DNA from: Closterium sp. NIES-65
Taxonomy: Eukaryota; Streptophyta; Zygnematophyceae; Desmidiales; Closteriaceae
Assembly: GCA_948144175.1 (NCBI GenBank)
Contig: CANXME010002317.1
Coordinates: 1,984,001-2,048,000, forward strand
DNA: 64,000 nucleotides
Direction: 5' to 3'
The notes beneath the pieces are model-generated. The model was not told the origin of the DNA. It saw only the letters and a program-made list of their open reading frames with translations, and searched no databases. Positions 5,264 to 61,505 of the stretch are shown one piece after another (positions within the stretch are counted from its first letter, which is position 1; every line of letters starts with the position of its first letter). The position numbers and the translations under genes were made by a program.

Positions 5264-8200
5264 TCAATAGTAATGAATCAGCTTTCTACGAGTTGACAAT
5301 GTCAATGCAAGTGGCAGTCTATCAGGCTTTCTAGAACTCAACGTTCGTTTCTTTGCCTCACTGTACAAAACAACCCCAGCTACAGTGATTCCGTAGCCTA
5401 TCATCCCTAGTAAAGTTACAGGGTTTCGGAATATGATGATTGAGACGACAACAGCAACTGCACCCTTGGCATTTCCGAGGACCTGGCAACAAGGCACGAA
5501 GACATCAGCGCAAAGAGTGGTTTGATATCAATTGAGATGACAACAGCAACAGCACCCTTTTCAATTTTGACCACCTGACGTACGGTAAGAGAGAAAAAAC
5601 AAAGGGGAAAGAAGAGTTACCGAGTACAACTAGTAGTACCCCAATGCGCCTCAGAAAGTCAAGGAATTGCAATGAAACACGCACAGTGCAGTGTAGCATC
5701 TCATGACACACTGCTGGATAGTGCATAACTTACCTGGTTTTGAGACTTCTCAAAACCTGCAATGAAGCACCCACGGTGCAATCTAGCATCTCATCATGAC
5801 ACGATGCTGCATAGTGCACAGCGTACCCGGAAGCGAGAGCACCTGGAGAGAGCGAGAGCACCTGGAGAGAGTGAGAGCACCTGGAGAGAGTGAGAGCACC
5901 TGGAGAGAGTGAGAGCACCTGGAGAGAGCGAGAGCACCTGGAGAGAGCGAGAGCACCTGGAGGGAGCGAGAGTACCTTGAAAGTGAGTGACATATGTGGA
6001 GAGTGAGAAAGTACCTGAAGAGAGTGAGGGTACCAGGAGAGAGTACCAGGAGACAGTACCAGGAGAGAGTACCAGGAGACAGTACCAGGAGAGAGTACCA
6101 GGAGACAGTACCAGGAGAGAGTACCAGGAGACAGTACCAGGAGAGAGTACCAGGAGAGAGTACCAGGAGAGAGTACCAGAAGAGAGTACCAGGAGAGAGT
6201 ACCAGGAGAGAGTACCAGGAGAGAGTACCAGGAGAGAGTACCAGGAGAGAGTACCAGGAGAGTGGGTGACACATGTGAAGAGTACCAGGAGAGTGAGAGC
6301 GTGTGGAGAGAGTGAGAGAACCTGGAGAGAGTGAGAGAACCTGGCGAGAGTGAGAGTACCTAGAATGATTGAGAGTACCCAGAGAGAGTGAGTAACCTGG
6401 AGAAAGTGAGAGTACCTGTAGGGTGAATGACATATCTGGAGAGTGAGAAAGTACTGACGAGGGTGAAGAGCACCTAGAGAGTGAGCGCACCTGAAGAGTG
6501 AGTGCGCTCGTGTAACGGGTAACCAGAAAGTTGGTGAGATTGACGAAAAACGCAGTAGAGGAGTTGACCAGGAGCAGAGGGACGATCCGCCAATCTTCAC
6601 CCGCTTTGCTGGCGGCAACGGCGAGGACGGTTGGTTCGATGATGAGAGTGGCGGGGAGGAGGAGGAGTACTGCGATGGGAGCCATGTAGAAGAGAAGATT
6701 CATGGAGTTGAGCTGATGGCTGGAGGGGGGTTGAGAGGGAGATTCGGGGGGGGGAAAGTAGGGGAGAGGTGGGAGGGGAAAGAAGGGAAGGCAACGGGGT
6801 TGTAACAGGACGATCCCCCAGTCTTGGCCCGCCTTGCGGGCAGCAACGGCGAGACCACATGCTCTTGCTTTACTGGCAGCAACGGCGAGCACGGTTGGTT
6901 CGATGATGAGAGTGGCGGGGAGGAGGAGGAGCACTGCGATGGGAGCCATGCAGAAGAGCAGGTTCATGGAGTTGAGCTGATGGCTGGAAGGGAAAGGGAA
7001 AAGACGAAAGGGAGGCGAGAAGAGTAGGAAGACAGGATGAGGAGGGAGGAGCAGGAGCACTGCAATGGGAGCCATGTAGAAGAGCAGATTCATGGAGTTG
7101 AGCTGATGGCTGGAAGGGGGATGGGGGTGGGCCGGGGGGTGGATGGGAAGGGGAGCTGAGTGGGAAAATGAGCAGAAGAGTAAGAAGAGAAGGTAAGGAG
7201 GGAATGAGGAGGACTGCGATGGGAGGCATGTAGAAGAGAAGGTTCATGGAATTGAGCTGATAGCTGGAGAAGGATGGAGAAAGAGCGGAGAAGAGATGTA
7301 CCCATTTCATTTGAGTGTAGACTCACAAACTTACCCAACTGACTGCATCAAGCCCTGCAGCACAAGCTTGAGAACTGGTTGTCGTTGCTCAAATAACATT
7401 TTCCAGTTTTCACATCTGTATTCCAATGGTGACTTTAAATGTCTAACTTGCCCATCTGACTGCAGCGGCAGGCCCTGCAGGACAAACTTGAGTGCCCTGG
7501 CTGTTCTTGCTACAAAAAACATTTTTTTTCAATCATGGGCATATCGATATGCACTAATGATCAGTGTACATAAACAAACTTACCCATCTGACTGCAACAG
7601 CAAACCCTGCAGCACAGACTTGAGTGCCCTGGCTGCTGTTGCTGATACACAGATGATGAAGCCAAAGAGGTGAAAGCTGGGCTCGCTCTGGTGGGAGGGG
7701 AGAAAAGGGGTAGGGGACAGACAGAGGGAAAGTAACAAGTGCAAGGAGAGCTGAAGCAACACGCTGGCTGCTGTTGCTAGCTGATACGCAGATGATGAAG
7801 CCAAAGAGGTGAAAGCTGGGCTCGCTCTGGTGGGAGGGGAATAAAGGGAGAGATGGAGTGCGGGAGCAGATTTAATCGGGACTGCTGCTGAGGCAGCACG
7901 TTTGCCTCCGTTGCTGATAAACAAGTAATGAAGCGAGAGAGGTGAAAGCTGGGCTTGCCCTGATGGGAGGGTAATAAAGGGAGAGGTGGAGTGCGGGAGC
8001 AGATTTAATCGGGACTGCTGCTGAGGCAGCACGTTTGCCTCCGTTGCTGATAAACAAGTAATGAAGCCAGAGAGGTGAAAGCTGGGCTTGCCCTGATGGG
8101 AGGTTGTCAGTCATGGTGGAATGGCAGCAGTACTAGAGAACAGCTTTAGCAAGTAAGAAAGAGAGTAAAGGATACTGTTAAAGCTGTTCTCTAGTACTGC

Positions 8201-10548
8201 TGCCCTTTGACCATGTGTGGGAGAATGAAGCCAGAGAGGTGAAGGCTGAGCTTGCTCTGATGTGAGGGGAGCGAGGGGGTGGGGGACGGACAGAAGGGAA
8301 GCGACAAGCGTGAGGAGAGCTGATTTCTGAAGAGAGGAGAGGAGTGGAACAAGTGCTGCTGAAGCAACATGCTGCGAAGTAACAAAGTCGTCCTGTCCCC
8401 AACACACACACAATGTTCTCACAAAGCGCTCACTTGCTCACTGACTCGCTCACTTACTCACTCACTCCCTCACTGACTGACTCACTCACTCACTCCCTCG
8501 CTCACTTACTCACTCCCTCACTCACTCACCCCGCTGGCGATGACGACGCCGAGCACGACTCACTGACTGACTGACTGACTGACTGACTGACTGACTGACT
8601 GACTGACTGACTGACTGACTGACTGACTGACTGACTGACTGAACGACTGACTGAGAGACTCACCCCGGTGGCGATGACAACGCCGAGCACGACGGGCAGG
8701 AGCGCGGCATACGTGAGGGCGGCCTCGCGCTTGAAGGTGAGGAGGTAGGCAAAGACAGCCGTGAAGAATGGCGTGGTGGCGCCGATGGCCTGGTTGAACG
8801 ACACCGGGATGAAGCGCACTCACTCACTCACTCACTCCCTCACTCCCTCACTCCCTCACTCACTCACTCAGTCACTCCCTCACTCACTTGCTCACTCACT
8901 CACTCACTCGCTCCCTCACAGACTCACCCCGGTGGCGATGACAACGCCGAGCACGACGGGCAGGAGCGCGGCATACGTGAGGGCGGCCTCGCGCTTGAAG
9001 GTGAGGAGGTAGGCAAAGACAGCCGTGAAGAATGGCGTGGTGGCGCCGATGGCCTGGTTGAATGAGACTGGGATGAAGCGCAGCGACGTGTTGCCGCCCA
9101 CCACTGAGAAGCAGAACACGGCACTGAGAGCCACGATCCTGAGCAGCTGCGAGGAGGACTTGAGTGGCTGGGAGATGGGGGGGTGGGGGAAAGGAGAGGC
9201 ACAGGAGAAGAGTCAGAATCACGAGGGCAGAAAGAGAGAAACTGGGGGAGGTGAGCATTGGAGGGTTGGGAATGGCGTGGTGGCGCCGATGGCCTGGTTG
9301 AACGACACCGGGATGAAGCGCAGGGATGTGTTGCCGCCCACCACTGAGAAGCAGAACACGGCACTGAGAGCCACGATCCTGAGCAGCTGCGAGGTGGATT
9401 TGAGTGGCTGGGAGATGGGGGGGGGGGGGGGGGTGGGGGAGAAAAGGAAAGGAGAGGCAAGAGTCAGAATTACGAGGGCAGAAAGAGAGAAACTGGGGGA
9501 AGTGAGCGTTGGAGGGTTGGGAATGGCATGGTGGCGCGGATGGCCTGGTTGAATGACACTGGGATGAAGCGCAGCGACGTGTTGCCGCCCACCACTGAGA
9601 AACAGAACACGGCACTTAAAGCAACGATTCTGAGGAGTTGGGAGGTGGACTTGAGAGGCTGGAAAACGGGATGTGTGAAAGGTTGGGAGGGAGGGATGAA
9701 TGTGGGGGGGATGGGAGATTCCGGTGTGAGTGTAGGATTGTGGGGCGTTCGAGCTAGGGTGATACGAAAGGTGTTTTGAGACGTCTCAGAAAACGGGATG
9801 CGTGAAAGGTTGGGAGGGAGGGATGAATGTGGGGGAAATGGGAGATTCGGTGTGAGTGTAGGATTGTGGGGCGTTCGAGCTAGGGTGGTACGAAAGGTTT
9901 TTGAGGAAATGGAGGGGCAGAGGGGTTGGTTTAATGGAAAGGGCAAGAGACGCTTTTGGGTCAGTTTCAGGTGTTTCTTCATAACCTGGAGTATGGAACA
10001 GCAGCACGAATATGGGGCGCATAAAGCCCAACTTACACTGGACATTTAAAGCCCAACTCACACTGGACACTCTAAAGCCCAACTCACACTGGACACGCAA
10101 AGCCCAACTCACACTGGGCACTTAGAGCCCAACTCACATATCTGGAGAGGGACGATCTTCATCCACACAATGGCGACGCAGCTGAAGATGAGGCTAGCTG
10201 ACATGCAATGTTACACGTAACCGTCACTTACCTGTAACACTGCGACCGCGCTTACCTGCAGCGGGACGACCTTCATCCACCACACAATCTGCAGACAGGC
10301 TGTGTGGTTACCCTGTTACAGTAATGCGTGCTTACCTGCAGCGGGACGATCTTCATCCACACAATGGCAACGTAGCTGAAGAGGGAGCAAGCGGTCATGT
10401 GACACATGGTGAGGAAGATGGGGTACTTAAAGCCATAGCTGCTTAGCAGGAATTTATTCAGCAGCAACACTCCGATGTTGCTTGTGTACCACGCCGCTAC
10501 TATTGACAGGGTAAATAACCCTGAGGTCTTTTTGGTGGATTCCTGCAT
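5264..10548 (-). CDS. Sugar-phosphate/phosphate translocator family protein (DMT superfamily, TPT-like), 5 coding exons
   Basis: My model has coding exons 10548-10336, 9167-8928, 7687-7584, 6719-6491 and 5482-5264. All introns have GT/AG borders and phases agree, giving 334 residues against about 308 as I recall for the Arabidopsis At3g11320/At5g05820 group. Matching stretches are [14 protein letters not shown]-like (exon 1), [14 protein letters not shown] (exon 2), [13 protein letters not shown] (exon 3), [14 protein letters not shown] (exon 4) and [14 protein letters not shown] (exon 5). The family has about ten membrane helices and exchanges phosphorylated sugars or related anions for phosphate; this subgroup is generally placed in the Golgi/ER. 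Substrate cannot be read from sequence. The start is the ATG at 10548, just after a splice acceptor at 10557, implying a 5'UTR intron. The introns contain many partial copies of exons 1-4; the exons chosen are the complete ones. Confidence 0.85.
5841..5973. repeat. 19-bp minisatellite of AG|GT junctions, 7 units
   Basis: Units begin at 5841, 5860, 5879, 5898, 5917, 5936 and 5955. Read on the gene's minus strand the unit is GTGCTCTCRCTCTCTCCAG, so every unit starts with GT, is pyrimidine-rich and ends with CAG. The real exon 4 donor nearby is CTTCAG|GTGCGCTCAC, similar to the unit, so the array may be an amplified splice-junction echo. Confidence 0.85.
6031..6264. repeat. 13-bp minisatellite, 18 units
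   Basis: TACCAGGAGAGAG (variant with GAGACAG) repeats every 13 bases from 6031 to 6252. Because 13 is not a multiple of three, all frames show the same 13-residue peptide repeat, which explains the long artificial frames here. It lies in translocator intron 4. Confidence 0.95.
6795..7268 (-). repeat. Exon 4 echoes of the translocator gene
   Basis: The complete exon 4 is 6719-6491. A long echo at 6991-6795 carries the acceptor and the first two thirds of the exon, with an internal repeat of the LAVAASKA-coding stretch. Shorter echoes are at about 7112-7045 and 7268-7205. All start with the same TCCAGCCATCAGCTCAACTC acceptor region (TCCAGCTATCAGC in the last). Confidence 0.85.
7330..8265 (-). 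repeat. Exon 3 echoes of the translocator gene
   Basis: The complete exon 3 is 7687-7584. Partial copies lie at about 8265-8205, 8100-8035, 7970-7905 and 7830-7765 (5' part, encoding [14 protein letters not shown]-like peptides with the CCAGAGCGAGC acceptor) and at about 7530-7440 and 7395-7330 (3' part, encoding LQGL..QSDG with the GTAAGTTTG donor). The 7905-7970 and 8035-8100 copies lie in a direct duplication of roughly 130 bp. Confidence 0.85.
8126..8204. repeat. Inverted repeat, 25-bp arms, in translocator intron 2
   Basis: The arm GGCAGCAGTACTAGAGAACA continuing to GCTTTA is repeated exactly in inverted orientation about 30 bases later. It would form a perfect 25-26 bp stem in the transcript. 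Confidence 0.85.
8526..9658 (-). repeat. Exon 2 echoes of the translocator gene
   Basis: The complete exon 2 is 9167-8928. A copy at 9658 to about 9515 starts with a good acceptor but diverges before the end. A copy at about 9410-9275 has the same acceptor and stops at the ATTPF codons. A copy at 8817-8657 lacks the 5' third but keeps the 3' end and GTGAGT donor, almost identical in sequence. A short scrap lies at 8526-8560. The copies are partial, in the same orientation, and separated by simple repeats. The near identity of the 8657-8817 copy suggests recent duplication. Confidence 0.85.
8565..8655. repeat. (GACT)n tetranucleotide microsatellite
   Basis: About 20 uninterrupted GACT units flanked by looser CTCA/CACT repeats from about 8415 to 8560 and 8820 to 8910, all inside translocator intron 2 between exon-2 copies. 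Confidence 0.95.
10020..10135. repeat. ~26-bp tandem repeat in translocator intron 1
   Basis: About five units of AAAGCCCAACTCACACTGGA with short variable tails. It lies in the intron between coding exons 1 and 2 and matches no exon. Confidence 0.8.
10140..10290 (-). repeat. Two echoes of the 3' end of translocator exon 1
   Basis: Copies at about 10150-10190 and 10252-10280 repeat the end of exon 1 (the stretch encoding WMKIVPLQ) that truly ends at 10336. The nearer copy retains the CTGCAG|GTAAGC junction. Together with the real junction this makes three in under 250 bp. Confidence 0.8.
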
Positions 10549-10556
10549 GGTTGGAT

Positions 10557-12152: not shown

Positions 12153-12194
12153 TGTTACGGGTGCAATGAATCGAAGTAGCGAGAATTGCACTAA

Positions 12195-30420: not shown

Positions 30421-30804
30421 TCATTGAAGCGAAGGTGGTAGTGTAGCAATCATGTGCTCAATTTTCTCCACCACCTGTGCAGCCGTCGGGCGTTGCTTCA
30501 CATTCTGCTGAAGCATCCACTCCACCAGCCTATGGAACGACGCAGGGTACCCCACCACCTCCCCTCCCGCTCCTTCCGCAGCAGAGAAACCAGAAAAGTC
30601 GCCTCCAGACGAACCAGGAGCGTCCATTAGAGCAGGGGAGGGAGAGGAGGAGGAGGCGGGGAGGGGTGGATGTGGCCATTTGATGGTGCCGCTCATAACT
30701 GCGAGCTGCAGGCTGCCTCCTGATTCGCCAAGGGAGAACTCGAAAGGGGACTGGCCATACCTGGGGTTTGAGAAAGAAGAGAAAAAGAGGCAATGGGAAA
30801 AAAA

Positions 30805-30840
<36 letters not shown>

Positions 30841-33800: not shown

Positions 33801-35944
33801 CACTTGAAGCGGTGAGAAGCGGTGGCCTCTACCGGGCTGCGACCCCTTGGGCTTTTAAGTCGACTCAATAATGAAGCGTCCATTACCTGGTTGATAATGG
33901 TGAGCACTTGAAGCGGTGAGAAGCGGTGGCATCGATTACCTGGCTGATAATGGAGAGCACTTGAAGCGGTGAGAAGCGGTGGCCTCTACCAGGCTGCGAC
34001 CCCTTGGGCTTTTAAGTCGACTCAATAATGAAGCGTCCATTACCTGGTTGATAATGGTGAGCACTTGAAGCGGTGAGAAGCGGTGGCATCCATTACCTGG
34101 CTGATAATGGAGAGCACTTGAAGTGGTGAGAAGCGGTGGCCTCTAACGGGCTGCGACCCCTTGGGCTGAGCCATCCACCCGACATGGTCTTGAATGGTGC
34201 CGTCCCTGTAGACTGGGAAGACGAGATATGCCTCCTTGGTGCCCTGCTGCTGCTGCAATGGGGTTAGGGCAACAAGAGGGATTGGGAGAAGTGGTCCGAA
34301 GTGGTGAGAAGCGGTGGCCTCTACAAGAGGAAAGTTGCGACCCCTTGGGCTGAGCCATCCACCCGACATGGTCGTGAGTGGTGCCGTCCCGGTAGACTGG
34401 GAAGACGAGATATGCCTCCTTGGTGCCCTGCTGCTGCATGCGGTTAAAACGACAAGTGGGATGGTGAGAAGCGGTGAGAACCGGTGTTAAGTGGTGGCCT
34501 CTACCAGATGAGGGCTGTGACCCCTTGGGCTGAGCCATCCACCCGACATGGTCGTGAATGGTGCCGTCCCGGTAGACTGGGAAGACCAGGTACGCCTCCT
34601 TGGTGCCCTGCTGCTGCTGCAGGATTGAAGGGAGTGGAATAGTTAGGGACGGGGGGTGTGGGGGGTGGGAGGGAGAGAAAGAGAGGATAGAAAGTGGGGA
34701 GGCAGGAAAGGAAAAGGAGGTCAATCAGGTTGGGGAATCACGCTAGAGAGTTAACGTGGTAAGGCAGAGAGGTAAAGGAACCCAGGAATTACCTTGGATG
34801 ACACTATGGCGTGTTCCACTAAATGAAGCACGCTGGGAAACGAAATTGGGAGTTGACATGGCAAATCAGGAAGGGAGAGGAAATCAGGAGTTACCTTGGA
34901 TGAAACTATAGCATGCTCCACTAAAGGGAGCAAGCTGGGGTGATCTAGTTTTGATGCGACGTCGATTTCGGCCTTCACCAGCAGCAGCTGCTCCTTGGTC
35001 TGTATCAGAAACTTCTTTAACGCGTATGTGTTGTCAGCTGGAGGAGAGAGGGGGATAGAGAAAATAAGCACAGCAACTATTCTGTCCGTATCATAACTTA
35101 TATAACGCGTATGTTTTGTGAGGTGGACGAAGGATGGAGTGGGGGACACAAAGGGAGACAAGATTGTGGGAAATGAAGGTGGGAAGGTGGAGCATGTAAA
35201 AGGTTTATAGCGAGGATAAGCCTCGTTAAGTGCAAAATTAGTTACAGGGGTCTTACGAGAGACGTATTTCCGTTTCGGTTTGGCTGGAACAGCTGGATTG
35301 ACGTCCGTATCATCCGCTGATCCTGCATTTTCCTCTGACTTTCGGGGTTCTGCAGCCTTGTCATCACCGCTAGTCTCCACGTCAGCAGCTGGATCCGACA
35401 ATGCATCTGCACCATCGACGGCGCTGCTGCGGCTGCTACCGGTTTCGCGAACTAGGTAAACGAAAGCGTAACCACCTTCGCCCAGGTTCTGCACGATGCG
35501 GAACCGTCGCCCGTTGACCTTCACCTCCTCGCCACTACTCACAGCATCATAAATCGCCGCCAAACCAGACCACGTGCAACCCATTAGGTCTTTAATATCC
35601 TTTAATTCCCTAATATCCTTAAAATCTTTCACGTTGCTGCTGTTCCGGGCAGCCCCGTGACGAAAAGTTTCGACCAGGTGATCGACGTTTTGAGTCACTT
35701 GTTTCACGCGTTCGCTTTCAAAAACGTTATCGACAAGCTTCTCTACGTTCTGTTTCACGCCTTGGCTACCTGCGAACACGCTCTCGTACAAACGGGACAG
35801 GCCCTCGCCCACACCGTGAGCCTGGGTCGGAGGCTCCACAGAACCACCCTGGACCCCTCTAGAACCGCTGTGGACCCCTTCAGATTCGCCTTGACCCCTG
35901 GCGAACACACTGTCGTACCAACGGGAGAGTCCTTGAGAGTTCAT
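30421..35944 (-). CDS. STK16/AtPK3-like serine/threonine protein kinase (NAK family), 6 coding exons
   Basis: My model has exons 35944-35257, 35037-34895, about 34252-34097, 33054-32518, 31706-31582 and 30760-30421, all GT/AG with matching phases, 662 residues. Visible signatures are MGCTWSGL (residue 121), a glycine loop LGEGGYAFVYLV, the kinase lysine in YALKKFLIQ, catalytic loop AHNDVKPGN (HND in place of HRD, also in the plant AtPK3 sequence as I recall it), MDFGSTTPAR, RAPEFWDCPSEMEIDERSDVWSLGCTLY, and GESGGSLQLAV near the end. Plant relatives begin at the MGC site (N-terminal Gly/Cys typical of lipidation), giving 542 residues; the 120 upstream codons are open and contain two LSRxYxSVFA motifs. 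A Gly/Ala-rich insert of about 100 residues separates the catalytic loop from DFG. The introns carry many exon copies. Confidence 0.85.
30805..30839. repeat. Homopolymer of 35 G (35 C in the kinase transcript)
   Basis: An unbroken G run followed by further GGGGG blocks to about 30860. It lies in the last intron of the kinase gene between the real exon 6 (30760) and its echo (about 30885-30985). Confidence 0.95.
30885..31550 (-). repeat. Echoes of kinase exons 5 and 6
   Basis: About 30985-30885 repeats the start of exon 6, with acceptor CCTCAG|GTATGGGCAG. About 31550-31425 repeats exon 5 with changes but keeps the ACCAT|GTGAGT donor. About 31370-31310 and 31255-31200 repeat only its 3' end. 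The real exons are 30760-30421 and 31706-31582. Confidence 0.85.
31960..32460 (-). repeat. Three echoes of the kinase DFG segment
   Basis: The end of exon 4 (encoding MDFGSTTPARRHITSRNQAL, real copy ending at 32518) recurs at about 32455-32375, 32335-32255 and 32065-31965, each ending in a usable-looking G|GTRxGT-type donor. One copy reads DFGFTTPAR. Short GAGAGGTAGT repeats (32105-32235) separate two of them. Confidence 0.85.
33100..33310 (-). repeat. Two echoes of the kinase catalytic-loop segment
   Basis: About 33310-33230 and 33185-33105 repeat the start of exon 4 (real copy from 33054). The farther copy has acceptor TTCTTCCCAG and encodes HNDVKPGSVLIA in frame; the nearer copy has lost the frame in its early part. 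Confidence 0.8.
33510..33735. repeat. 28-bp tandem repeat, 8 units
   Basis: The unit AACGTAGCAAGACGATGAAG plus CATGCGTA repeats with few changes. It lies in kinase intron 3 and matches no exon. Confidence 0.9.
33780..34620 (-). repeat. Echoes of kinase exon 3
   Basis: The exon 3 stretch encoding GTKEAYLVFPVYRDGT is present three times (starting near 34615, 34437 and 34252). Only the copy at 34252-34097 runs through to the 3' end and GTAATGG donor. Further copies of the 3' end alone (peptide VLTIINQ, then a donor) lie at about 33782-33850, 33880-33925, 33940-34010 and 34040-34085. An echo of the exon 2 end is at about 34785-34850. Confidence 0.85.
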
Positions 35945-49481: not shown

Positions 49482-49993
49482 CCAACCAAATTCAAGTTAT
49501 TGATTTTCCCGCCAAGGCGACAGCACATCGCGTGGTTCGCAGAGTCGCAAATGTTGGAGCTCGAGCCGCGTCAGCGAGAATGTTCGATTCCGTGCATTCG
49601 TGGGATGTTCGAACTCCACTCAATTTGGCGGGAGGGAGCAATTCGAACGCGTCAGAGTACAAAAATGTAAACTGAGTCAGTCAGGTCTCGCTAAGTAATT
49701 TCACGACATTAGCGAAGGCGGGTAACCAGCCAAGTTCGCACCGGTTCGAGCTTTAGTTGACACGCCCTTAGGACGCGTCAACTCCGGCAAAATTTGGCGA
49801 TCGATCCTGCGAAGGGTCGATTTTTGACTGGGTTAAAAGTTGCAATTGCGGAATTTTAGTGCGGTTGACAATCTATATTGTACGAACGATTGCTGTTTTG
49901 CAAGAGTTGACGCGTCCTAACAGGATGTTCCCAAGGTGCGGCTTGTAGCTCCTTTAAAAGGAGGAAGCGAGATAGATGAATCCTAGCATGTAT

Positions 49994-50066
49994 CGACTCC
50001 ACTGGGGATCGAACCCAGAATCTCTGGTTCCGTAGACCAGCGCCTTATCCATTGGGCCATGGAGTC
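49994..50066 (-). tRNA. tRNA-Arg: tRNA-Arg (anticodon ACG)
   Basis: 73-nt cloverleaf on the minus strand without intron. The acceptor stem GACTCCA/TGGAGTC is fully paired with discriminator G. The D arm reads GGCCCAATGGATAAGGC. The anticodon stem CTGGT/ACCAG encloses loop CTACGGA, anticodon ACG. The T arm is CTGGGTTCGATCCCCAG. ACG would be edited to ICG and reads CGU/CGC/CGA. It lies between the Harbinger end (49917) and the CPBP gene start (50155). Confidence 0.95.
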
Positions 50067-50154
50067 ATGTCACGACAACATAAAAAAATTTGTCACAATG
50101 TATATTAAAGGCTGCACTTCCAGTATCAGTCTTCCACAACCATCACGCGCCACC

Positions 50155-53100
50155 ATGAGCAGCAGCAGCGCCGTCACGTCGCTCCGGCTCTCACTCACCC
50201 ACCCGCACCTTCTGCAGCCTCGGTGTGGGTCTGAGGGACGTCAATCATGCACCAACCCGCGAGCATCGCTGACATGTCATCAACCCTATCCTCGCGATGT
50301 CACGCGTCGTAACCTTCCTGTCGTTGACTGGAGACGCGTCGCGGGCGGCGTTGCTTGCGCGCTTCGTAGCTCAGATAGTGGAACAGGGTCAAAGCCGAAA
50401 TTCGCGCAGCTTTGCCTTCCTCAATCCCAGAATAGAGTATCCCAGTCCCATGGGTTACATCTCGCCTGCACGTTCAACGGACGTCACGTTCCCAGAGCAA
50501 CTGAACGCTCCCTGGGAGCAAATGGAGGGAAATTCAAATTCGGGTCAGATGAACGTTTTTCCTCCTGGTCGGGACTAGCTGCGCCAGGAAGGTTCGCCAC
50601 TGTTTCGGCCGAGCCGGTATCTGAGAGTAAGGCGAGTAGAGCAGCGCGTGGAACTGTGCGGTGTAGATCCGGCGCGGATAATAACGAGACGGAGAATGAC
50701 TCTAGCGCGGACGGGGAAGCCGGGTTGGCGGAGGCGGAGGGGGAGAAGGCTTGGTGGGCGCAAGGGTGGGACGTGCCGTGGGGGTGGCGGGAGACAGGCA
50801 TCGGAATGAGCGCGTGGATCTCCAGGTATGTACTTATAACGAGTGTTGCATATAACGGGGATAAATGAAGGCTTGGTGGGCGCAAGGGTGGGACATGCTT
50901 TGGGGATGGCGGGATTCAGGCATCTGAATGAGCGCGTGGATCTCGAGGTATGTGCTTATAACGAGTGTTGCTTATAACAGGGAGAGGAGCAGTGTGCGTG
51001 CAAGTGTGGGACGTGCCGTGGGGATGGAGGGAGACGGGCATCGAAATGAGCGCGTGGATCTCGAGGTGTGTACTTATAGTGAATGCTGTTGATAAGGAGG
51101 ATAGTGGTGTGCTCAACACTTCCGCCGCACCCCCTTCTTCTTCCACCCGTCTTCCCCGCTCCCCAACCCCTCATGTCTTTTCCCAGCTTCATATTTGAGG
51201 GCATAGGGGTGACTTTTGAGTCGAGTCAAAAGTCACCTCTTCCCCCCTCCCCAACCCCTCATGTCTTTTCCCAGCTTCATATTTGAGGGCATAGCCATGC
51301 AGAACGCCTGTCTCAAGCTTGGCTGGGCCCCCTGGAGGGGCACGGATCTCGGTCACATTCCCACCCCACCCCACCCAATCCCACTCCACCAATCTTCCCC
51401 CCCCCTCCCTCCTCCCCAGCTTTATCTTTGTGGGCATAGCCGTGCAGCTGGCGTGTCTCAAGCTCGGGTGGGCGCCCTGGAGGGGCACAGATCTCAACGA
51501 CGAGGCGCTCTTTCTGCTCATCAACCATTCGTGTGTGCTTGTCCCCGATCTCCTCCCTTCCTCCGCCCTCCCACCCCCCCCCAGCTTCATATTTGTGGGA
51601 ATAGCCGTGCAGCTCGCCTGCCTCAAGCTCGGGTGGGCGCCCTGGAGGGGCACAGACCTCAACGACTGAGGCGCTCTTTCGCTCATCAACCAGTCGGCTG
51701 TGTGTGTGCGCATATCCCCCCTTTCCACCCTTCCTTCCTTCCTTGGCCCTCCCCACCGCACTTCCAGCTTCATATTCGTGGGCATAGCCGTGCAGTTAAC
51801 TTGCCTCAAGCTCGGGTGGGCGCCCTGGAGGGGCACGGATCTCAATGACGAGGCGCTCTTTCTGCTCATCAACCAGTCGGTGCGAACGGCATCAGGGATA
51901 GCCATCGTGTGGTTTGTCGCGCGCCCCTTCAACCCACTCTCCACCGACCTTTTCCATTGGGGTAGGTCCATTCGGGGAAAGATAGGTAGGTAGGTGCCTT
52001 TTGGGGTAGGTAGGTAGCTAGGTAGGTGCCTTCTGGGGTAGGTAGGTAGCTAGGTAGGTGCCTTCTTGAGTAGGTAGGTGCCTTCTTGAGTAGGTAGGCG
52101 CGTTCTGGGTTGCTCTTTCTGCTCATCAACCAGTCGGTGCGAATGGCATCAGGAATCGCCATTGTCTGGCTTGTCGCCCGCCACTTCCAACCACTCTCCA
52201 CCGACCCCTTCCACTGGGGTAGGTCCCTTCGGTTCGGGAAAGGTAAGTAGGTGTTAGAAATAGTCAGTCAACACTTTGTACTATATTCTATATCGGTTAG
52301 GTTACTTTGTAGGTTGGGTGTAGATTTGTAATCCCAACCCTATCTGGTTGGGATTCCCTCGTAATCCTGCAAATCTGCCAACTCACCAATTGGAGATTTG
52401 CTAGGATTCCCATCCCATCCTTTCTCTAGCTTTGCTCAACCCAACCCTGTTTGTACTTAAGGCCTAGTGCCTTCCTTATCAAGTAATCAGTTCAGTTCCA
52501 ATTCTATCATGGTATCGAGCTAGTAAATTCCGCTCACGCGGAATCCGATCCTTGGCGTCCCGATGGTTCTCTCCTTCTAGGCTATGCCTATTTCGGTTCC
52601 CGGCTCCTACGCTTAGCGTTTTTCAGAAACTTCACATCGTCGCTCCGGTCAAGCGCGCATTCGGCTTCCTTCATCGCGCATCTCGTTTTTCAACGGCGAC
52701 ATTCTCAGCCTTCGACTTCCTTCATCGTAAGCTTCTGGTGTTTATATCTCCGTGGCAATTTTTCGCATCTTCTTAACTTCGAACAGGTTTTCAGCGGCGC
52801 AGCAGAACAGGTCCAGCGGCGCAGCGGAACAGGTTCAGCGGTGCAGCAGAACAGGTTCAGCGGCGCAGCAGAACAGGTTCAGCGGCGCAGCAGAACAGTT
52901 TCAGCGGCGCAGCAGAACAGGTCAGCGGCGCAGCAGAGAAGCAGAACAGGTCAGCGGCGCAGCAGAACAGGTCAGCGGCGCAGCAGAGAAGCGGAACAGG
53001 GGCAGCAGCGAAGCAGATCAGGGGGCATCGGCGAAGCAGTATAACAGGGTATATTACGGGCATTCTATTGACAAAATCGCGTTTCGGACTTCCTCAATTT

Positions 53101-56100
53101 CCGCTACGTATCGGAGACTTTAGTGCTGCGCTCCGCGCGTAATGGCAACTTCAACTTCCACTCTCGTCAGAAACCTCATCATCCTTAACCTCGGTCCCAA
53201 CGGCACGAGCACCAATTTCGGGGAGTGGTGCTATGGAGTGGAGAAGCACCTCCTTAGCTCGTAGCTCAAGGGGATTTGCCTCAAGGACATCCTCCTCAAC
53301 CGCGGCAAGGGGAAGATGCCTCTCCCTCCCGATCCTCTCGGCGAAGGCGCTGCTGCCACAGCCAAGCTTGCTTTCGACGCTAAGACCACCAAGTATGAGA
53401 CGGACTTCAGTCTTTGGGAGCAGGCGGATGCAGCAGTGGTTAGGGTGTTCATCACCACCACCCCAGTTGAGTTAGTCAAGTCCTACCGCACCTTCCGCTC
53501 TGCGCATGACATTTGGAAGTACCTCTAGGATCGTTTTCATGACAAAACTGCAGTGGGAGTTGCAATCCTCATTCCGCGCATGTTCCAAGTCCGCCTTGAT
53601 GAATGCCCGGGCATGGCAGACTACATCTCTGAAATCCGCAACATCCATGAGGAGCTCAAGGTCATTGGGATCACCTTCCCCGAACAGGCACCTGCTGCTG
53701 GGCTACTCGTCGGACTCACCCCGGCCCGGCCTACAACGTCACCAGTTCCATGCTCAAGCAGCTCCCCACCAAGGAACTCACCTTTGAGAAAGTCGCTTCG
53801 GCCCTTCTCTCCGCCGAATAGGACCTTGCAGCCCAGGCATCCGTCAATGCTGTGCGCTACTCCCCTGGCATCCCATTTCGTTCCCAGCAGGGCCAGAGGC
53901 GCAAATCCTTTCCCCCATGCCAGTACCTCATTAGGAAGGGTCCACGTGCGGGGCAGAAATGCAATGGCACCAACCACCCTGAGGCAACTTGCTTCAAGAA
54001 GCGAGATGACGAGTGGTATGACGTCCACGGTGTCTCCAAGGACAAGCGCCCTCCCAACTGGGCACCACCCCGTCGCGTGAACCGGGTCGAGGTAGTGGAG
54101 GAACCTGCCCAGGCATTTGCTAGTGCCCCATCTGATGTTCGCCTTAACCTGTTGTTCTCTGGTGCTGGTCTTATTAATGAGAAGGGGTCGCAGTACATCG
54201 GTGTTTCAACCACACAGGGAATCGAGTTCATACTAGACAGTGGTGCCACCCACACAGTGCTTAAAGACCAAAGTGCTTTCGTTCCCTCCAGGCTCCCACC
54301 TCACTCCTTGGAGCCGATTCTAGCTTCTCCATGCAATGCCATGGGTCTTCCACAGTCTCCTGTCCAGCTTTCCCATCCGGCACAGTCACTGGCATATGTG
54401 CCCCCACCCTCCGCTACAACCTTCTTGCACAGCGGGAAATCCAACACGCAGGCGTGATCACCATCTTTCCCAATGATGTTGACTACTGTGACATGTTTGA
54501 CGCCAAGACCGGACATCCATCTTGCCCGCTTCACCCTCAACTCCAACAACCTGTACACACTAGTTGTACCTCCTGTTCAAACATGCTCCCTCACCAACCT
54601 TCCGCTTCCATCCTCAGACTCCCCCTCATGTCACTGCCGCCTCGCCTCCTCACTGACAAGACTATGCTATTTCATAACCGCCTCGGCCACATCAACTTCC
54701 GCGCACTTTCAGACCTTGCCACCAAACAACTCCTTCATGGGCTGCCCGCCTCACTTCCACAACCCCCCTCTCTTTCTGGATCGCCTTGCCTTGACTGTGC
54801 ACTGAGCAAGCTTCGGGAACAGCCCCATCTCCCCACTGAGTCCATCTCTAGAGCACCTCTCGATCGCGTACACATGGACCTTTGGGGTCCAGCTCTTGTT
54901 CGTTCCCGTGGCGGACACTTCTACTTCCTTGTTATCGTTGATGACTATTCCCGCTATGTGTCAGTTCACCTTCTCATCGCCAAGTCTAAAGCCCCAGCCA
55001 TCATCATGGAATGGGCCAGGCAGGCTCATTCACACTTCAAAACCAAAATCAAGATTCTTCACTCTGACGGTGGTGGTGAATTCCGCAACAACACTTTCAA
55101 AGCTTTCTGCTCAACTGAGGGTATTCGTCAGACCTTCACTCTCCCAGACAGCCGTCAACAGAACGGTGTTGCTGAGAGCCGAAACCGCATCCTGGTGCAG
55201 ATTGCTCGCTGCCTCCTCACTCATGCTTCCGCCCCTCCCTCTCTTTGGGGATATGTCATGCTCCATGCTGCCGCCCTCCACAATCTCCATCCTCATCCTC
55301 ACCACACCCACACCACCCCCGCAGAGCTGTGGACGGGTCAAAAGCCGCCCGTCCGCCCTCTTCGTGTATGGGGGTGCACTTCCTATGTCCTCCTCAACTC
55401 CCAAGCCCGTCGCGCAGTTGGCGGCAAGCTTGCTCCGAAAACAATCACGTGCGTGTACCTCGGGCACAACTCGGACTCGCCAGACTACCTCTTCCTCCAT
55501 TCTCCCACCAACAAACTCTATTGCAGCCGAGATGTTTTCTTCGATTAATCCCACCCATTCTACCCCTCCTCCATAGTTTCTCCTTCTCCTCCGCCTCCCT
55601 CTCTTACTTGGGCTGACTTTGACAGCCTTCCTCCTGCCACCACTCCATCTCCTCCTCTTCCCGCTCCCTCCACAGTTTCCGACCCCCCGTCACCCGCTTC
55701 CCCATCCAGCACCACGCAGTCTCCCCCGCTCCAACCCGCCCCCGAGCCGATTCCTCTCAAAACCTACCAACGCCGTCCTCCTGCTGCTGCTCCTCCTCCT
55801 GCTCCAACTCCTGCTCCTGATCTGGCTCCTGCTCCTGATCTGGCTCCTGCTCCTGATCCAGCTGCTGTTCCTGATGCTGCCACTCCACCTGCTGCTTCCC
55901 CTCCTCCAGCTCCGCCTCCCTCCCCCATCGCTGGTCGCACCCGCTCGCGCAAAGCTTCCAAGCCTCTTTCCCTTTCCATTCGTGTCTCTCTCAATCCTCC
56001 TCCTGTCGGGGGTGATTATTCGCTCATGCCCTCCCTTTTTGAGGACAGACATGAGGAGTTGATTGAGATTGACTCAGCCATACACGCACTCTGCTCCCTC

Positions 56101-59100
56101 TTTCCAGATATCGCAGAATCTCCCACCCTCAACTTCTCGGACAACCCCTCCATCCCCACACCTCTCACCTATGCTGAAGCAATTTTTGGTCCTCACACCG
56201 CTCAGTGGCTAAGGGCCATTGTCGCGGAGTGTGAGGCCTTCATTCACACAGGAACTTTCACAGATGTCTTTGCTCCCTCCGGCGTCAACATTGTGAAGGG
56301 AAAATGAGTTTTCCGGGTGAAACAACTTCCAGGCGAGTTTCCCGTCTTCAAAGCCCGGTACTGTGCCAAGGGTTTTACCCAAAAGCATGGACTGGACTTC
56401 TTTGAGACATTCTCTCCCACCGCCAAACCTCCCACACTGCGCACCCTTCTCGATGTTGCCGCTCGAGATGACATGGAGGTTGACTGCATGGATGTGTCCT
56501 CTGCGTTTCTGCAAGGGATCCTTCGAGAGGAAATTTACATGGAGCGGCCCGAAGGATTTCCAGCTCCCTTTCCACCAGGCACAGTATGGAAGCTGAATCG
56601 ACCAGTCTATGGCCTCAAGCAAGCACCCCGGGAATGGCACAACAAGCTCAAGAGCACCTTAGGGTTCCTCGACTTTCACCCATCCACCTCTGACCCCAGC
56701 CTCTTCATCCGAGCAACATCATCCCGCTTCTTCATCTTGGTTTATGTCGATGACATGATCCTTGTCACCAAGGATCAGACTGAGCTGGCAGCAGTCAAAA
56801 CCGCACTTGGTGAGAAGCTGACCATGAAGGATCTTGGGAAGCTGACGAACTATCTGGGCATGGAAATCACACGTGATCGCGCGGCCCGCACCATCACCCT
56901 CTCGCAGAATTTCTACATCAACAATGTTCTGACCAGGTTCAAGATGCAGGAAGCAGCTTCAATGCCCACCCCACTCTCTCTGCAGCACCAACTCACTGCA
57001 CCCTCTGTTCCCTCACCTGAGCCTTGTGATGAGGCTTACCCCGAGCTCGTCGGTTCCCTCATGTACGCGATGATGTGCACTCGACCAGACTTGGCCTATC
57101 CAGTCAGTGTCCTGTCTCGCTACGTTGCACCTGGTCGCTTCACGAGCCACCACTGGTCTGCCGCCAAGCGGGTCCTCCGCTATCTCAAAGGCACACAAGA
57201 CTATGTGCTCACTCTTGGCGGCTCTTCCCCTGTTCGCCTTGAGGGGTACAGTGACTCGTCCTATGCTGATGACCAGAGTGATCGGCGCTCTTCCCAAGGG
57301 TATTGCTTTACCCTTGGCAGTGGGGTTGTCAGTTGGCGCTCCACTCGGTCGTCTTCCGTCTCACTCTCGACCTGTGAGGCAGAGCTGTATGCCGGGACCA
57401 TGGCTGCCCAAGAGGCCCATTGGCTCTCCTTCTTGCTGGCAGAACTTGGGTATCCTCAACCAGCCCCAACGCTTTGGTGTGACAACGAGAGCACCATTCA
57501 TCTCACAAAAGACCCTGTCTTCCACGGCCGCACCAAGCACATTGAGGTCCGTCACTACTTTCTTCGTGAGCTGGTGCAGCGCGAGCAGCTGAAGGCTGAA
57601 CACATTGCCTCCGACTGCAACCTTGCTGACTTGTTTACCAAGTCTCTTGTTCGCCAAGACCACTACCGCCTCCTCTCGTCCATAGGTGTTGGGCCGCCAT
57701 GTGGCTGAAGTGTTGTCAGTCTAGGGGGTGTGTTAGAAATAGTCAGTCAACACTTTGTACTATATTCTATATCGGCTAGGTTACTTTGTAGGTTGGGTGT
57801 AGATTTGTAATCCCAACCCTATCTGGTTGGGATTCCCTCGTAATCCTGCAAATCTGCCAACTCACCAATTGGAGATTTGCTAGGATTCCCATCCCATCCT
57901 TTCTCTAGCTTTGCTCAACCCAACCCTGTTTGTACTTAAGGCCTAGTGCCTTCCTTATCAAGTAATCAGTTCAGTTCCAATTCTATCAGTAGGTACTAGG
58001 TAGGCGCCTTCTGGGGCAGGTGCCTCTTGGGTTGCTCTTTCTGCTCATCAACCAGTCGGTGCGAACGGCATCAGGCATAGCCATTGTCTGGCTTGTCGCC
58101 CGCCACTTCCAACCACTCTCCACCGACCTTTTCCACTGGGGTAGGTCCCTTCGGTTCGGGAAAGGTAAGTAGGTACTAGGTAAGCGCCTTCTGGGGCAGG
58201 TGCCTCCTGGGTTGCTCTTTCTGCTCATCAACCAGTCGGTGCGAACGGCATCAGGCATAGCCATCGTGTGGCTCGTCGCCCGCCCCTTCAAACCACTCTC
58301 TACCGACCTTTTCCACTGGGGTAGGCGTTTTATGGGGGTAGGTGCCTTCTTGATAGGTAGTAGGTGCCCTCTGGGGTAGGCGCCTTCTGGGGTAGGTGTC
58401 TTCTGGAGTACTCTTTCTTTCCTCGAATCCTTTTCTCCCTTCCATTTGCATCATCGGATCAAAGATGGTTGTCCTGGGCTTGTAGTACGGCATCTTGATT
58501 GGCCGTTTTGTTGGTGTTTTTAGTGCGACTTGTCAAAAATAGACAGGTGGGCTGCAAAGGCCTTTCGCAGCCTACCTGCCTATTTTAGACATGTAGGGCA
58601 TCTTGATCGACCGTTTGAATGCTTCTTTTCCATGATCAGCCATCTTCATCCTTTCACTCCGCTCCTCCCCTTCTCTTTTCGACCTGTTCAGGTTTCGAGG
58701 ACCCATTCAGTTGTCGCAAGGGGTGGTTGTCATGGGCCGGCGTGGGCGTCTTGACTGCTGGGCTCGTAGTTTTCGCCACTGCCACCGCCACAACGGCACT
58801 ATCAGGAGGGATTGACCCGCCTAGAGAGGTACTGCCGTGGCGCTGTTGACTTCTGTTGAGTTGTGTTGACTTTTATTGACTTTTGCCTGCTTTGTATCGG
58901 CTGTCCTGGGCGCGTGTGGACGACTTGACTGCTGGGCTCGTAGTTTTCGCCACTGCCACTGCCACCACAGCGCTTTAAGGGGGAATGGACGCGCCCAGAG
59001 AGGTACTGGATTTGACTTCCATTGACTTCTGTTGAGTCTGTTTCTCCTGAATTACTTGTCTTGGGTTGGTGTTATTTGTCTTCACTCTTGACAGCTGGGC

Positions 59101-61505
59101 TTTGGGGATTGGTGCACCCAGAAAGGTATTGCTGTTGACTTTCATTGACTTTTTTTGAATTGCTTGTTGGTTTTGTGTTGACTCAAAAACAACAGGGAGA
59201 GAATGGAGAGGTGGTGAGAACGGCTTGGCGACATTAACACCAGCTTGGAGGATAAGGCGAATTGGGGTTTTTTGGAGACGCTTCTAGAGTGCTTGCAGCC
59301 ATTACAAACTACAGAGCTTGAAGCCACGCGTCGTGTACTGGCTGCAAGCACTCTCAGAAGCGTCTCTCAATAACCCCAATTTGCCCTTTCCTCCATGCTT
59401 GTGTTCGTGTCGCTAAGTTCGTCCCACGATCTCTCAATTCTCTCCCTGTTGTTAGCTGCTTTGACTCTTGGGTCTTGGACTGCTGGGCTCGTTAACTTTT
59501 GTTGACTCGTGTTGACTTCACCTGGTGACGTGCTACTGCTGTTGATTTTTGTTGACTCGTGTTGACTTCACCTGGTGACGTGCTACTGCCGTTGATTCTT
59601 GTTGACTCGTGTTGACCTCCCCCATCACCCATCTAGCCTAAGCTCAGCCTAGAAGAGATTAGGACAAGATACCTGTTGGATTAGGACGAGTCACCTGCTG
59701 GATCCAGGTCGAAACTTTATACGTATGCTTCTTGTTGATGTTTTCTTCCACCAGCAGTCGCACGCGCGCCCTCTGCTCCCTGTAGCTCCCCGCACTCACT
59801 GCTGCCAGGGCTTCTGAGATCAAACATTCCGAGCAGCATGCTGCCTGGGAGAGGGCCGGACCACCTTCGTACTGTGGTTATTCTGTTGCTTCCAGCAACG
59901 CTCACACACACTATGTCTCTTAACGTGAGGACGAGTCACCTGCTGGATCCAGGTCGAAACTTTATACGTATGCTTCTTGTTGACTCATGTTGACCTCCCC
60001 CATCACCCATCTTGCCTTCCCCCCACCCCCGCCACCAGGACGCAGATGCGTTGGTGCAAGTTCTGCCCATAATCACCGCCTCCCCTTTCAGCACCGGAGC
60101 TCTATTATTTGTTGCCAGTGTGCTCTTAATTCCCCTCTCTCCTCATCTCCTCACTCATCTCCCCATTTTCCCCTTTTTCTCCCGTGCCCTCCTCTCCCCA
60201 TACCAGGACGCAGATGCGTTGGTGCAAGTGCTGCCCATAATCGCCGCCTCCCCCTTCAGCACCGGTGCGCTCATCTTCGTGGCCGGTGTGCTCGCCCCCA
60301 TCCTCGAAGAAACCATCTTTCGAGCCTTCCTCCTCACTTCCCTGACAAAATGGTAGGTCATGCCATGCCATGCCATGCCATGCCATGCCATGCCGTGCCG
60401 TGCCGTGCTGTGCACTAGGATGGAGGTAGGTCACTTCCTCGTATTTCCTTTTAGCACTGGCGCCGGTCACTTCCTCGTATTTCCTTTCATCTTCGTCGCT
60501 GGTGTGCTCGCCCCATCCTTGAAGAGACTATTTTCCGAGCCTTCCTGCTCACATCCTTGACCAAGTGGTGAGTCGTGGCAAGTGGGTATGCCATTTATAT
60601 GTGCCAGAGGGTAGGGCAGAGCGTAACCTTCCTCTATAGGTTCGCTCATATTCTTTGCCTCTCGCCTTCGTCGCCGGTGTGCTCGCTCCCATCCTCGGGG
60701 ACACCATCTTCCGGGCCTTCCTGCTCACGTCCCTAACCAAATGGTGAGCTAGTTGCTCACTAGCTTCCTTAATGTGAGGTCGGTCTTTGCTGCTGCCCAC
60801 ATGACCCTCCCCTAGCTGTTTCTCCTCCCCTCACCCAATCTCTCCCTTCTTTTCCCCCCTTGGTAATACTGCATTCCACCAGGATGCTTGTACCTCTTGA
60901 AGTGGCAGGGAGCGTGCATTCCACCAGGACGCCAGTACCTCTTGCCACATGACTCCCAACGAGTTCCGTGCATTCCACCAGGACGCCAGTACCTCTTGCC
61001 ACATGACTCCCAACGAGTTCCGTGCATTCCACCAGGACGCCAGTACCTCTTGCCACATGACTCCCAACGAGTTCCGTGCCTCTGGCAGTCGCAGGCACTG
61101 CCTACACATGATTGAGGCGTCTCATATCTCTCAGCCCGATCTTTTCCCTGTTTCCCACCACCCTGTTTCCCACCACCCTGTTTCCCACCACCCTGTTTCC
61201 CACCACCCTGTTTCCCACCACCCTGTTTCCCACCACCCTGTTTCCCACCACCCTGTTTCCCACCACCCTGTTTTTCTCCCTCATTCCATCAGGATGCCTG
61301 TTCTTCTGGCGGTGGCAGGTAGTGCGTGTGCCTTTGCTGCTGCCCACATGACTCCCAACAGGCTCCCTGTCTCCTCCTGCCCTCTTCCCTGTTTTTCTCC
61401 CTCATTCCATCAGGATGCCTGTTCCTCTGGCGGTGGCAGGTAGTGCGTGTGCCTTTGCTGCTGCCCACATGACTCCCAACGAGTTTCCCAAGCTCGCTGC
61501 TCTTG
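50155..61505 (+). CDS. CPBP family (CAAX protease/ABI) intramembrane metalloprotease homolog, chloroplast-type; 3' end beyond the window
   Basis: My model has exons 50155-50825, 51768-51961, 58692-58828, 60207-60352 and 61414-61505, GT/AG borders with consistent phase, 413 codons so far. The N-terminus (MSSSSAVTSLRLSLTH, Ser/Arg-rich, few acids) looks like a plastid transit peptide. It continues through DVPWGWRETGIGMSAWIS, then membrane segments GIAIVWFV, GVGVLTAGLVVFATATA and FVAGVLAPIL. The first CPBP motif is LEETIFR (EExxxR) in exon 4 and the second is FAAAH in exon 5; the final His motif should be in exons not seen here. Bacterial relatives cleave or sort membrane proteins; plant members act in plastid membranes with poorly known substrates. 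The start has a good CACCATG context. Intron 2 holds a 5.7-kb Copia, and all introns hold exon copies. Confidence 0.8.
50867..51075 (+). repeat. Two echoes of the 3' end of CPBP exon 1
   Basis: The stretch encoding WAQGWDVPWGWRETGIGMSAWIS plus its donor (real junction 50825|50826) recurs at about 50867-50948 and 50990-51066, each ending ATCTCGAG|GTRTGT. Confidence 0.85.
51180..51670 (+). repeat. Four echoes of the 5' part of CPBP exon 2
   Basis: Acceptor plus CTTCATATTTGTGGG-type sequence recurs at about 51187, 51277, 51419 and 51593, of varying length. The two longest reach the TDLND codons. The complete copy is 51768-51961. Confidence 0.85.
52107..52251 (+). repeat. Echo of the 3' part of CPBP exon 2, next to the Copia insertion
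   Basis: From GCTCTTTCTGCTCATCAACC to CACTGGG|GTAGGT, encoding ALFLLINQSVRMASGIAIVW. The Copia target duplication GTAGG is at its downstream edge (52247-52251). Confidence 0.85.
52252..52509 (+). repeat. 5' LTR of Copia W
   Basis: TGTTAGAAATAG...ATTCTATCA, paired with 57731-57988. Confidence 0.95.
52795..53035. repeat. Leader repeats of Copia W
   Basis: About ten units of CAGCGGCGCAGCAGAACAGG (19-22 bp, some interrupted by GAAGCAG) lie between the primer site and gag. As in Copia X and Y, the leader is a tandem array, but the unit sequence is different. Confidence 0.85.
57731..57988 (+). repeat. 3' LTR of Copia W
   Basis: Differs from 52252-52509 by one base by eye; followed by the GTAGG duplication. 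Confidence 0.95.
57994..58325 (+). repeat. Two more echoes of CPBP exon 2 on the far side of the Copia
   Basis: About 58037-58142 and 58217-58322 repeat GCTCTTTCTGCTCATC through CACTGGG|GTAGG. GTAGGTGCC-type short repeats join them, as also at 51960-52105. The original echo array was therefore cut in two by the Copia. Confidence 0.85.
58538..58592. repeat. Short hairpin in CPBP intron 2
   Basis: TGTCAAAAATAGACAGGTGG continuing to GCTGCAAAGG pairs with CCTTTCGCAGCCTACCTGCC continuing to TATTTTAGACA, with a few mismatches and almost no loop. Confidence 0.8.
58900..59127 (+). repeat. Echoes of CPBP exon 3
   Basis: About 58903-59003 repeats the exon 3 stretch GACTGCTGGGCTCGTAGTTT through AGAGAG|GTACTG, with changes that close its frame. 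About 59085-59127 repeats only its end. A scrap of the same sequence is near 59475. Confidence 0.8.
59179..59467. repeat. Long imperfect inverted repeat (~290 bp) in CPBP intron 3
   Basis: The left arm runs from about 59179 to 59314 and the right arm from about 59330 to 59467. They pair for most of their length (for example GGAGACGCTTCTAGAGTGCT with AGCACTCTCAGAAGCGTCTC), and the loop is short. It could be a foldback MITE or a hairpin RNA precursor. No clear target duplication was found. Confidence 0.8.
60036..60115 (+). repeat. Echo of the 5' part of CPBP exon 4
   Basis: CACCAG|GACGCAGATGCGTTG through AGCACCGGAGCTC, then divergence. The complete exon is 60207-60352. Confidence 0.85.
60360..60412. 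repeat. (ATGCC)n pentanucleotide repeat
   Basis: About ten ATGCC/GTGCC units directly after the exon 4 donor. Confidence 0.9.
60450..60745 (+). repeat. Two echoes of the 3' part of CPBP exon 4 (active-site segment)
   Basis: About 60483-60566 encodes the EE-motif region but in a shifted frame, ending CAAGTG|GTGAGT. About 60657-60743 reads LAFVAGVLAPILGDTIFRAF in frame, with GD in place of the EE pair, ending AAATG|GTGAGC. Splicing to the second copy would give a protein lacking the catalytic Glu pair. Confidence 0.8.
60875..61375 (+). repeat. Echoes of CPBP exon 5, including a 54-bp tandem trio
   Basis: Three tandem copies of CATTCCACCAGGACGCCAGT through CATGACTCCCAACGAGTTCC lie at about 60915-61078, preceded by a shorter one near 60877. 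A longer copy (CATCAGGATGCCTGTTC...CATGACTCCCAACAGG) lies at about 61285-61365. The real exon is 61414-61505; another scrap is at 61575-61615. Confidence 0.85.
61145..61274. repeat. 15-bp tandem repeat, about 8.5 units
   Basis: CCTGTTTCCCACCAC repeated with almost no change, in CPBP intron 4. The true exon 5 is preceded by CCCTGTTTTTCTCCCTCATT, so this array may be an expansion of the branch/pyrimidine region of an echo. Confidence 0.9.

Follow-up and report, generated by a model that had tools for sequence, protein, structure and literature searches.

What has placed pieces of neighbouring exons in the introns of three unrelated genes of this locus, and what kept those pieces recognisable? 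The window, that is, the whole stretch of 64,000 nucleotides analysed here, derives from the single-celled green alga Closterium, and proteins close to all three gene products belonged to Closterium strains. The genes encode a sugar-phosphate/phosphate translocator of the TPT family (5264..10548, minus strand, PF03151), a protein kinase (30421..35944, minus strand, PF00069) that Pfam itself calls simply a protein kinase and that we take to be STK16-like, and a CPBP (Rce1-like) protease (50155..61505, plus strand, PF02517) whose 3' end lies beyond the window. The first-pass annotation had stated that one full set of exons per gene still reads through, and our models agreed with it. The translocator has 5 exons and 334 aa (E1-E5 at 10548-10336, 9167-8928, 7687-7584, 6719-6491 and 5482-5264), the kinase 6 exons and 662 aa (E1-E6 at 35944-35257, 35037-34895, 34252-34097, 33054-32518, 31706-31582 and 30760-30421), and the protease 5 exons in the window and 413 aa (E1-E5 at 50155-50825, 51768-51961, 58692-58828, 60207-60352 and 61414-61505). 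In all three models the frame is open throughout and the introns have GT-AG borders. One NIES-68 protein covered all five translocator exons, a NIES-53 protein covered the CPBP exons, and a NIES-64 protein aligned with the kinase from residue 121 onwards (542 columns, of which 504 are identities and 37 gaps). A tRNA-Arg (ACG) gene (49993-50067, minus strand) lies directly upstream of the CPBP gene.

We compared the 16 exons with the 13 introns of the three genes, excluding a Copia element located in one of them. All matches (50/50) were on the same strand and within the flanking introns of the same exon; none lay in the introns of another of the three genes (0/50), and 20 dinucleotide shuffles gave 0 matches. 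The claim that nearly every exon is copied in the adjoining intron held well, a same-strand partial copy being found there for 22 of the 26 splice junctions: 11 of 13 acceptors, two of them weakly (kinase E2 and translocator E5), and 11 of 13 internal donors. With flanks included (n=52 alignments), exactly one junction was spanned in 46. The remaining 6 comprised a near-whole copy of kinase E5, whose acceptor reads TG and which contains two stops, three short interior copies of CPBP E5, and two alignments from an in-frame repeat inside kinase exon 1 (35257-35944), the sole exon-internal repeat among the 52, whose 46-nt units lie 129 nt apart and are 78% alike.

The copies lie head to tail with their source and follow a strict orientation rule, acceptor-carrying copies (exon starts) being upstream of their exon in 23/23 cases and donor-carrying copies (exon ends) downstream in 23/23. 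The AG was kept in 21 of the 23 one-junction acceptor copies (of the other two, one is hidden by a gap and one reads AC) and the GT in 21 of the 23 donor copies (the others read AT and GC), so that the early observation that copies usually span a junction and often keep its splice signal was confirmed. Some one-junction copies reach merely 2-13 nt past the junction. None of the 47 junction-carrying copies was a whole exon with both splice sites, the near-whole kinase E5 copy having no acceptor. Gaps that shift the frame occur in the copies, as do 4 stops among their 1217 codons.

Along the translocator gene, on the minus strand, alignment placed two donor-side copies of E1 at 10139..10280, two acceptor-side and two donor-side copies of E2 at 9270..9670 and 8429..8818, four acceptor-side and two donor-side copies of E3 at 7764..8323 and 7314..7511, and three acceptor-side copies of E4 at 6867..7280. 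Intron 4 of this gene also holds a minisatellite (5835-6418) with units of 13 and 19 bp, the unit containing a CAG/GT block like the exon-4 donor just upstream; it is perhaps a junction duplication multiplied into many short copies. The kinase alignments, likewise on the minus strand, comprised one donor-side copy of E2 (34748..34837), two acceptor-side copies of E3 (34298..34621) and at least four donor-side ones spaced by about 53/104 nt (33776..34094), two acceptor-side and three donor-side copies of E4 (33103..33332 and 31966..32462), three donor-side copies of E5, including the near-whole one with its broken acceptor (31187..31559), and one acceptor-side copy of E6 (30863..31013). For the protease, on the plus strand, we aligned two donor-side copies of E1 (50867..51103), four acceptor-side copies of E2 (51150..51697) and three donor-side ones (52112..58410), one donor-side copy of E3 (58899..59037), one acceptor-side and two donor-side copies of E4 (60034..60125 and 60487..60745), acceptor-side and short interior copies of E5 (60870..61359) and one donor-side copy of E5 (61570..61621). 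The E2 donor array is interrupted by the Copia element (52252-57988), which has an RVT_2 domain, 259-nt LTRs that are 99.6% alike and a 5-bp target repeat, GTAGG. This insertion is recent, and the array, within which it took place, predates it. For some nearest copies the spacing is close to the aligned length (264/261 for translocator E2, 102/90 for kinase E2), which fits tandem duplication.

The explanation that we favour, and regard as reasonably probable, combines serial tandem duplication across exon/intron junctions, the survivors being kept, with the bringing together of diverged functional alleles by recombination. Its first part would work as follows. Segments of roughly 50-290 bp would be duplicated in tandem again and again in the genes of Closterium. 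After a duplication across an acceptor, the intact exon would be preceded by an additional intron tail, acceptor and exon start, and after one across a donor it would be followed by an additional exon end, donor and intron head; the orientation rule follows because the duplicated block crosses one junction. After either event one exon alone would retain both splice sites, so that the mRNA would stay right and the duplication would survive. Splicing by exon definition, which pairs sites across one exon, would presumably skip the one-site copies. Duplications within exons would mostly alter the protein and be lost. With ancestral introns of some 70-200 bp, most survivors would straddle a junction, and the introns would fill with exon ends and lengthen.

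The compact translocator paralogs C277/C86 suggest that the ancestral introns were indeed short. Their introns measure about 71-166 bp, as against 864-1240 bp at the same four positions in the window, so that the translocator introns are about 7- to 14-fold longer than in the compact paralog. Exon copies make up about 3601 of the 12188 intron bases (30%), a figure for which copy positions were mapped in proportion, and both results support the proposal that the process lengthens introns. We dropped segments of the observed unit lengths, entered by hand from the alignments, at random on these genes. With introns of 150-200 bp, duplications across one junction outnumbered purely intronic ones 5- to 15-fold, and 31-35% of the segments fell inside exons, where they would alter the protein; the one-junction to intronic ratio was 2.0 with introns of 300 bp and 0.35 with the present lengths. 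Random placement on short introns thus reproduces the pattern, and if the ancestral introns were short no targeting of junctions is necessary.

This bears directly on the idea that duplication is aimed at junctions through splicing-linked breaks, R-loops or RNA-templated repair. The proportion of affected junctions and the scarcity of purely intronic long units would agree with such targeting, but random placement predicts the same pattern, the broken ends of the copies show no splice-like signal, and a purely intronic 127-bp duplication exists. So do tandem repeats inside the first two Copia-type frames of the window (15724-16383 and 19246-19764), which indicate that the duplication process is not specific to genes. 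We consider targeting quite unlikely; the description of the process as junction-centred tandem duplication therefore stands for the tandem character and the pattern, not for the mechanism. The suggestion that the copies supply spare exons fared worse. An acceptor-like sequence was present at the broken end of only 1 of 23 donor-side copies (21% at random intron places) and a donor-like sequence at that of 5 of 23 acceptor-side copies (19%). Judging from these sequences, we infer that the copies are not used as exons.

The recurrence in three genes had been taken as a sign of a genome-wide process. We sampled 25 stretches of 10 kb (250 kb), picked by contig number regardless of the pattern; 5 were satellite arrays, and 7 transposon-rich ones were left out of the gene search. 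Homology recognised four intron-bearing non-transposon genes in the remaining stretches, encoding an ALDH12-type P5C dehydrogenase (P5CDH), XPD, a DHX36-like DEAH helicase and a BEACH protein, with an LRR/F-box frame and an unnamed gene in stretch L010 left out of the count. Extra same-strand copies in their own locus were found for 14 of 24 exon cores (15 of 25 counting a duplicate P5CDH exon), the cores having been picked by eye from printed frames and thus not blindly. These extra copies numbered 34 (38 with the P5CDH exon entered twice), and each gene had at least one copied core (2/8 in XPD and 1/3 in BEACH). There were no antisense copies of these cores and none in other sampled loci or in the window. 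These four genes in 250 kb support recurrence beyond the first three. Of 44 windows of conserved transposon domains, none had a local copy, although the elements may be young. Another stretch, L006, is low in GC and has mitochondrial-looking frames, presumably NADH dehydrogenase-like and cytochrome oxidase-like.

Gene families gave a more nuanced picture. In the translocator protein search (50 rows), the paralog pair C501/C1682 had partial pieces beside its exons (residues 100-137 and 234-268), and in the pair C277/C86 no partial copies were established, residues 51-78 overlapping between two C86 rows. For the chaperonins, a profile search gave 93 rows, with scores for 87 of its 166 candidates. 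Once near-identical contig pairs had been merged by hand, overlapping pieces stood side by side in 3 of about 11 distinct genes, a lower bound given that profiles miss short copies, and in 3/3 of these genes the pieces appeared to lie on the side expected from the orientation rule. Exon-end copying is thus frequent and recurrent across genes but not universal: the recurrence implied by a genome-wide process was upheld by the four sampled genes and the chaperonins, and the short introns of the C277/C86 paralogs speak against universality. In the chaperonin and several translocator matches, contigs came in pairs with identical or near-identical scores, which is what one would see if much of this haploid genome had undergone recent duplication or been assembled twice.

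The copies are local in origin. When the genome was searched with kinase E4 and 40 of the 63 candidates were scored, the ends of its coding sequence matched nothing but the exon and five local copies, the other 79 of 85 rows matching the low-complexity middle of the exon. An introner-like mobile element, one family spread across many genes, was rejected, since there were no matches across genes and no exon cores in other loci, and so was an origin by reverse transcription of mRNA, given that the copies include intron sequence. Six of 11 annotated Closterium proteins (P0002, P0003, P0010, P0128, P0129 and P0130), from other contigs and strains, contain the same kind of partial repeats by word count, although a BLASTP self-comparison of the annotated proteins gave no off-diagonal matches. 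The annotation of intronic copies as coding is likely to be an error, as is P0002, in which a kinase is fused to a translocator.

The presence of such repeats on other contigs and in other strains also makes it unlikely that the copies are assembly artefacts. An artefact of mixed haplotypes or homeologs might be imagined since the copies resemble diverged alleles. The cells are haploid, however, each array holds several copies, one array encloses a Copia element complete with its target-site repeat, and the published assemblies were built on long reads, with N50 values of 17-32 kb (PMC10407611); this explanation is exceedingly improbable.

How the copies have diverged is harder to explain than how they arose. 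Changes in copies dead on arrival should be spread evenly over the codon positions. We expressed divergence as changes per first or second codon position relative to the third, a ratio expected to be about two thirds between an exon and such copies. Differences between exons and copies at positions 1:2:3 were 76:69:211 (ratio 0.34), and those between copies 49:57:123 (0.43). The four sampled genes gave 83:63:209 (0.35) from 44 matches (P5CDH 21, DEAH 18, XPD 3, BEACH 2), or 67:56:189 (0.33) from 40 matches in a hand recount without the duplicate P5CDH exon. The exon-copy dN/dS was 0.21 (bootstrap 0.16-0.27; 1217 codons). In 300 simulations of passive decay, run with the intron mutation spectrum and with copy ages fixed from third-position differences, the exon-copy ratio was 0.68 (lowest 0.52) and the copy-copy ratio 0.90 (lowest 0.63); with a fully constrained exon the lowest values were 0.48 and 0.61. 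The observed ratios fit an effective constraint of about 0.3 on the copies. The splice letters of the copies were kept above their neighbourhood (42/46 vs 32.3 expected, P 0.0004; 19/21 vs 14.1 expected, P 0.013, for copies extending 40 nt or more past the junction), and changes private to a single copy were 71 silent and 64 altering where 35 and 100 were expected, the P values for both assuming independent changes. The silent/altering pattern was heterogeneous among copies (P 0.0006, on 47 of the 50 rows, entered by hand, with three rows without differences omitted), which fits a mixture. CpG mutability was rejected as the source of the third-position excess, its effect being modest and seen in introns too; gene conversion was rejected by algebraic reasoning only, according to which the copy-to-exon ratio could not fall below one half.

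Simple decay in place, in which every copy derives from the exon as it stands today and has since drifted neutrally, would fit the anatomy and some arrays: 5 of 15 exons were not below the passive-decay expectation, and in translocator E3 and kinase E5, which look neutral, altering changes prevail. The other 10 exons were below it, and for the set as a whole decay is rejected, both observed ratios being under the lowest simulated ones; dropping any single exon alters the third-position result little, and the four other genes agree. From these sequence comparisons, the copies do not appear to be simply decayed versions of the present exons, and in-place decay is very unlikely as the whole explanation. 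Selection for use would account for the third-position excess and the retained splice letters alike if the copies served as alternative or mutually exclusive exon ends or as mini-exons. The presence of copies in the six annotated proteins would speak for such use as well, the published annotation having drawn on RNA-seq, but gene prediction can wrongly take in decoys. Complementary splice sites at the broken ends are at, below or near the random rate, the acceptor is broken in the sole near-whole copy, which also contains two stops, and frameshifting gaps and stops occur elsewhere. We judge use of the copies to be distinctly unlikely. We give some chance, while still holding it unlikely, to selection keeping the code of the intronic ends, or to ongoing exchange with live exons, the introns then being a store for rebuilding exons.

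The favoured explanation, duplication joined with allele mixing, places most of the exon-copy divergence before the death of the copies and a minor part after it. Live exons and copies would descend from different, long-diverged functional alleles that recombination, either unequal or of the ordinary kind at a later time, has brought next to each other within a species complex that is diverse and in part hybrid. As the copies look unfit as exons, it was most likely in other alleles, where they were still live, that selection protected them. The genome paper reports for NIES-4550 a hybrid origin with recombination between sequences of different origin (PMC10407611), and a within-strain paralog Ks peak near 0.35 that is only suggestive as to allelic silent divergence (PMC10407611). 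A homeolog within this genome was rejected as the source of the copies, no near second kinase or translocator locus being present among the candidates scored. The kinase exon 4 search (40/63) likewise speaks against allele exchange in that it gave no second kinase locus among scored candidates, and the nearest other translocator loci are 59-82% identical per exon; the donor alleles would therefore have to come from other strains. The retention of splice letters, moreover, would equally fit use of the copies. Residues in the copies matched other proteins at 25 of 136 differences where 9.1 were expected, a weak test: three of these matches were to copy-containing proteins (P0003, P0010) and one to a distant plant, and most others were ancestral or ambiguous states. 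The sole callable shared derived state was kinase H298: two copies and a Naga37s-1 protein have this residue, whereas the live exon and the NIES-67 protein do not.

Tandem duplication of whole exons, as in mutually exclusive exons, places exon copies in neighbouring introns; those are whole exons, whereas the Closterium copies are partial and have one splice site. What we observed corresponds to internal tandem duplication crossing a junction, with intron, splice site and part of an exon in one block that adjoins its source on the same strand (50/50). A closely similar event has been described for a potato RdRp gene, in which a tandem duplication across an intron-exon boundary left the upstream exon piece intronic (PMC4974935). 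There too the duplicated segment crosses a junction and an exon piece lies inside an intron, but it is one event in one gene, in contrast to 46 serial copies, with further genes affected and existing introns lengthened, in Closterium. Internal gene duplication is reported to be frequent and to extend to introns (Gao and Lynch 2009 as cited in PMC4974935), as is the case here. In Drosophila, intron gain by duplication of an AGGT-type proto-splice site (PMC2891723) resembles our case in that tandem duplication within genes supplies splice letters, but the outcome there is an additional intron within an exon, and Closterium needs no new intron. The stwintrons of Lipomyces, with donor duplications of 4-7 nt and nested splicing by intron definition (PMC7138796), share a duplicated donor within an intron, whereas the Closterium copies measure tens to hundreds of bp and include exon code. 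The statement of the first-pass annotation that the pattern has no named description must thus be narrowed. Single junction-crossing duplications are already known, and what appears new here are serial arrays in many genes, of which we found no account in the titles and abstract openings of the literature matches listed or in the consulted parts of the Closterium genome paper (Kawaguchi et al. 2023, PMC10407611).

Such arrays would represent a route of intron growth that involves neither transposons nor foreign DNA and that can be seen under way in an alga closely related to land plants. In one culturable organism it could be tested how splicing ignores nearby decoy junctions, at which rates internal tandem duplications are born and die, and whether alleles are recorded in, or exchanged through, the exon ends found in introns. 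The decoy pieces in annotated Closterium proteins (6/11) put counts of coding repeats and of exon gains in this group at risk.

Adjacent retrotransposons at 13144-47503 comprise two related Copia-type frames, two related Ty3-type elements that are about 76% alike, with a chromodomain seen in one, and a further Copia-type frame with flanking 559-nt repeats that are 98.9% alike. Downstream of the last visible CPBP exon, a 65-bp satellite (62274-64000) of at least 26 near-identical copies runs past the end of the window.
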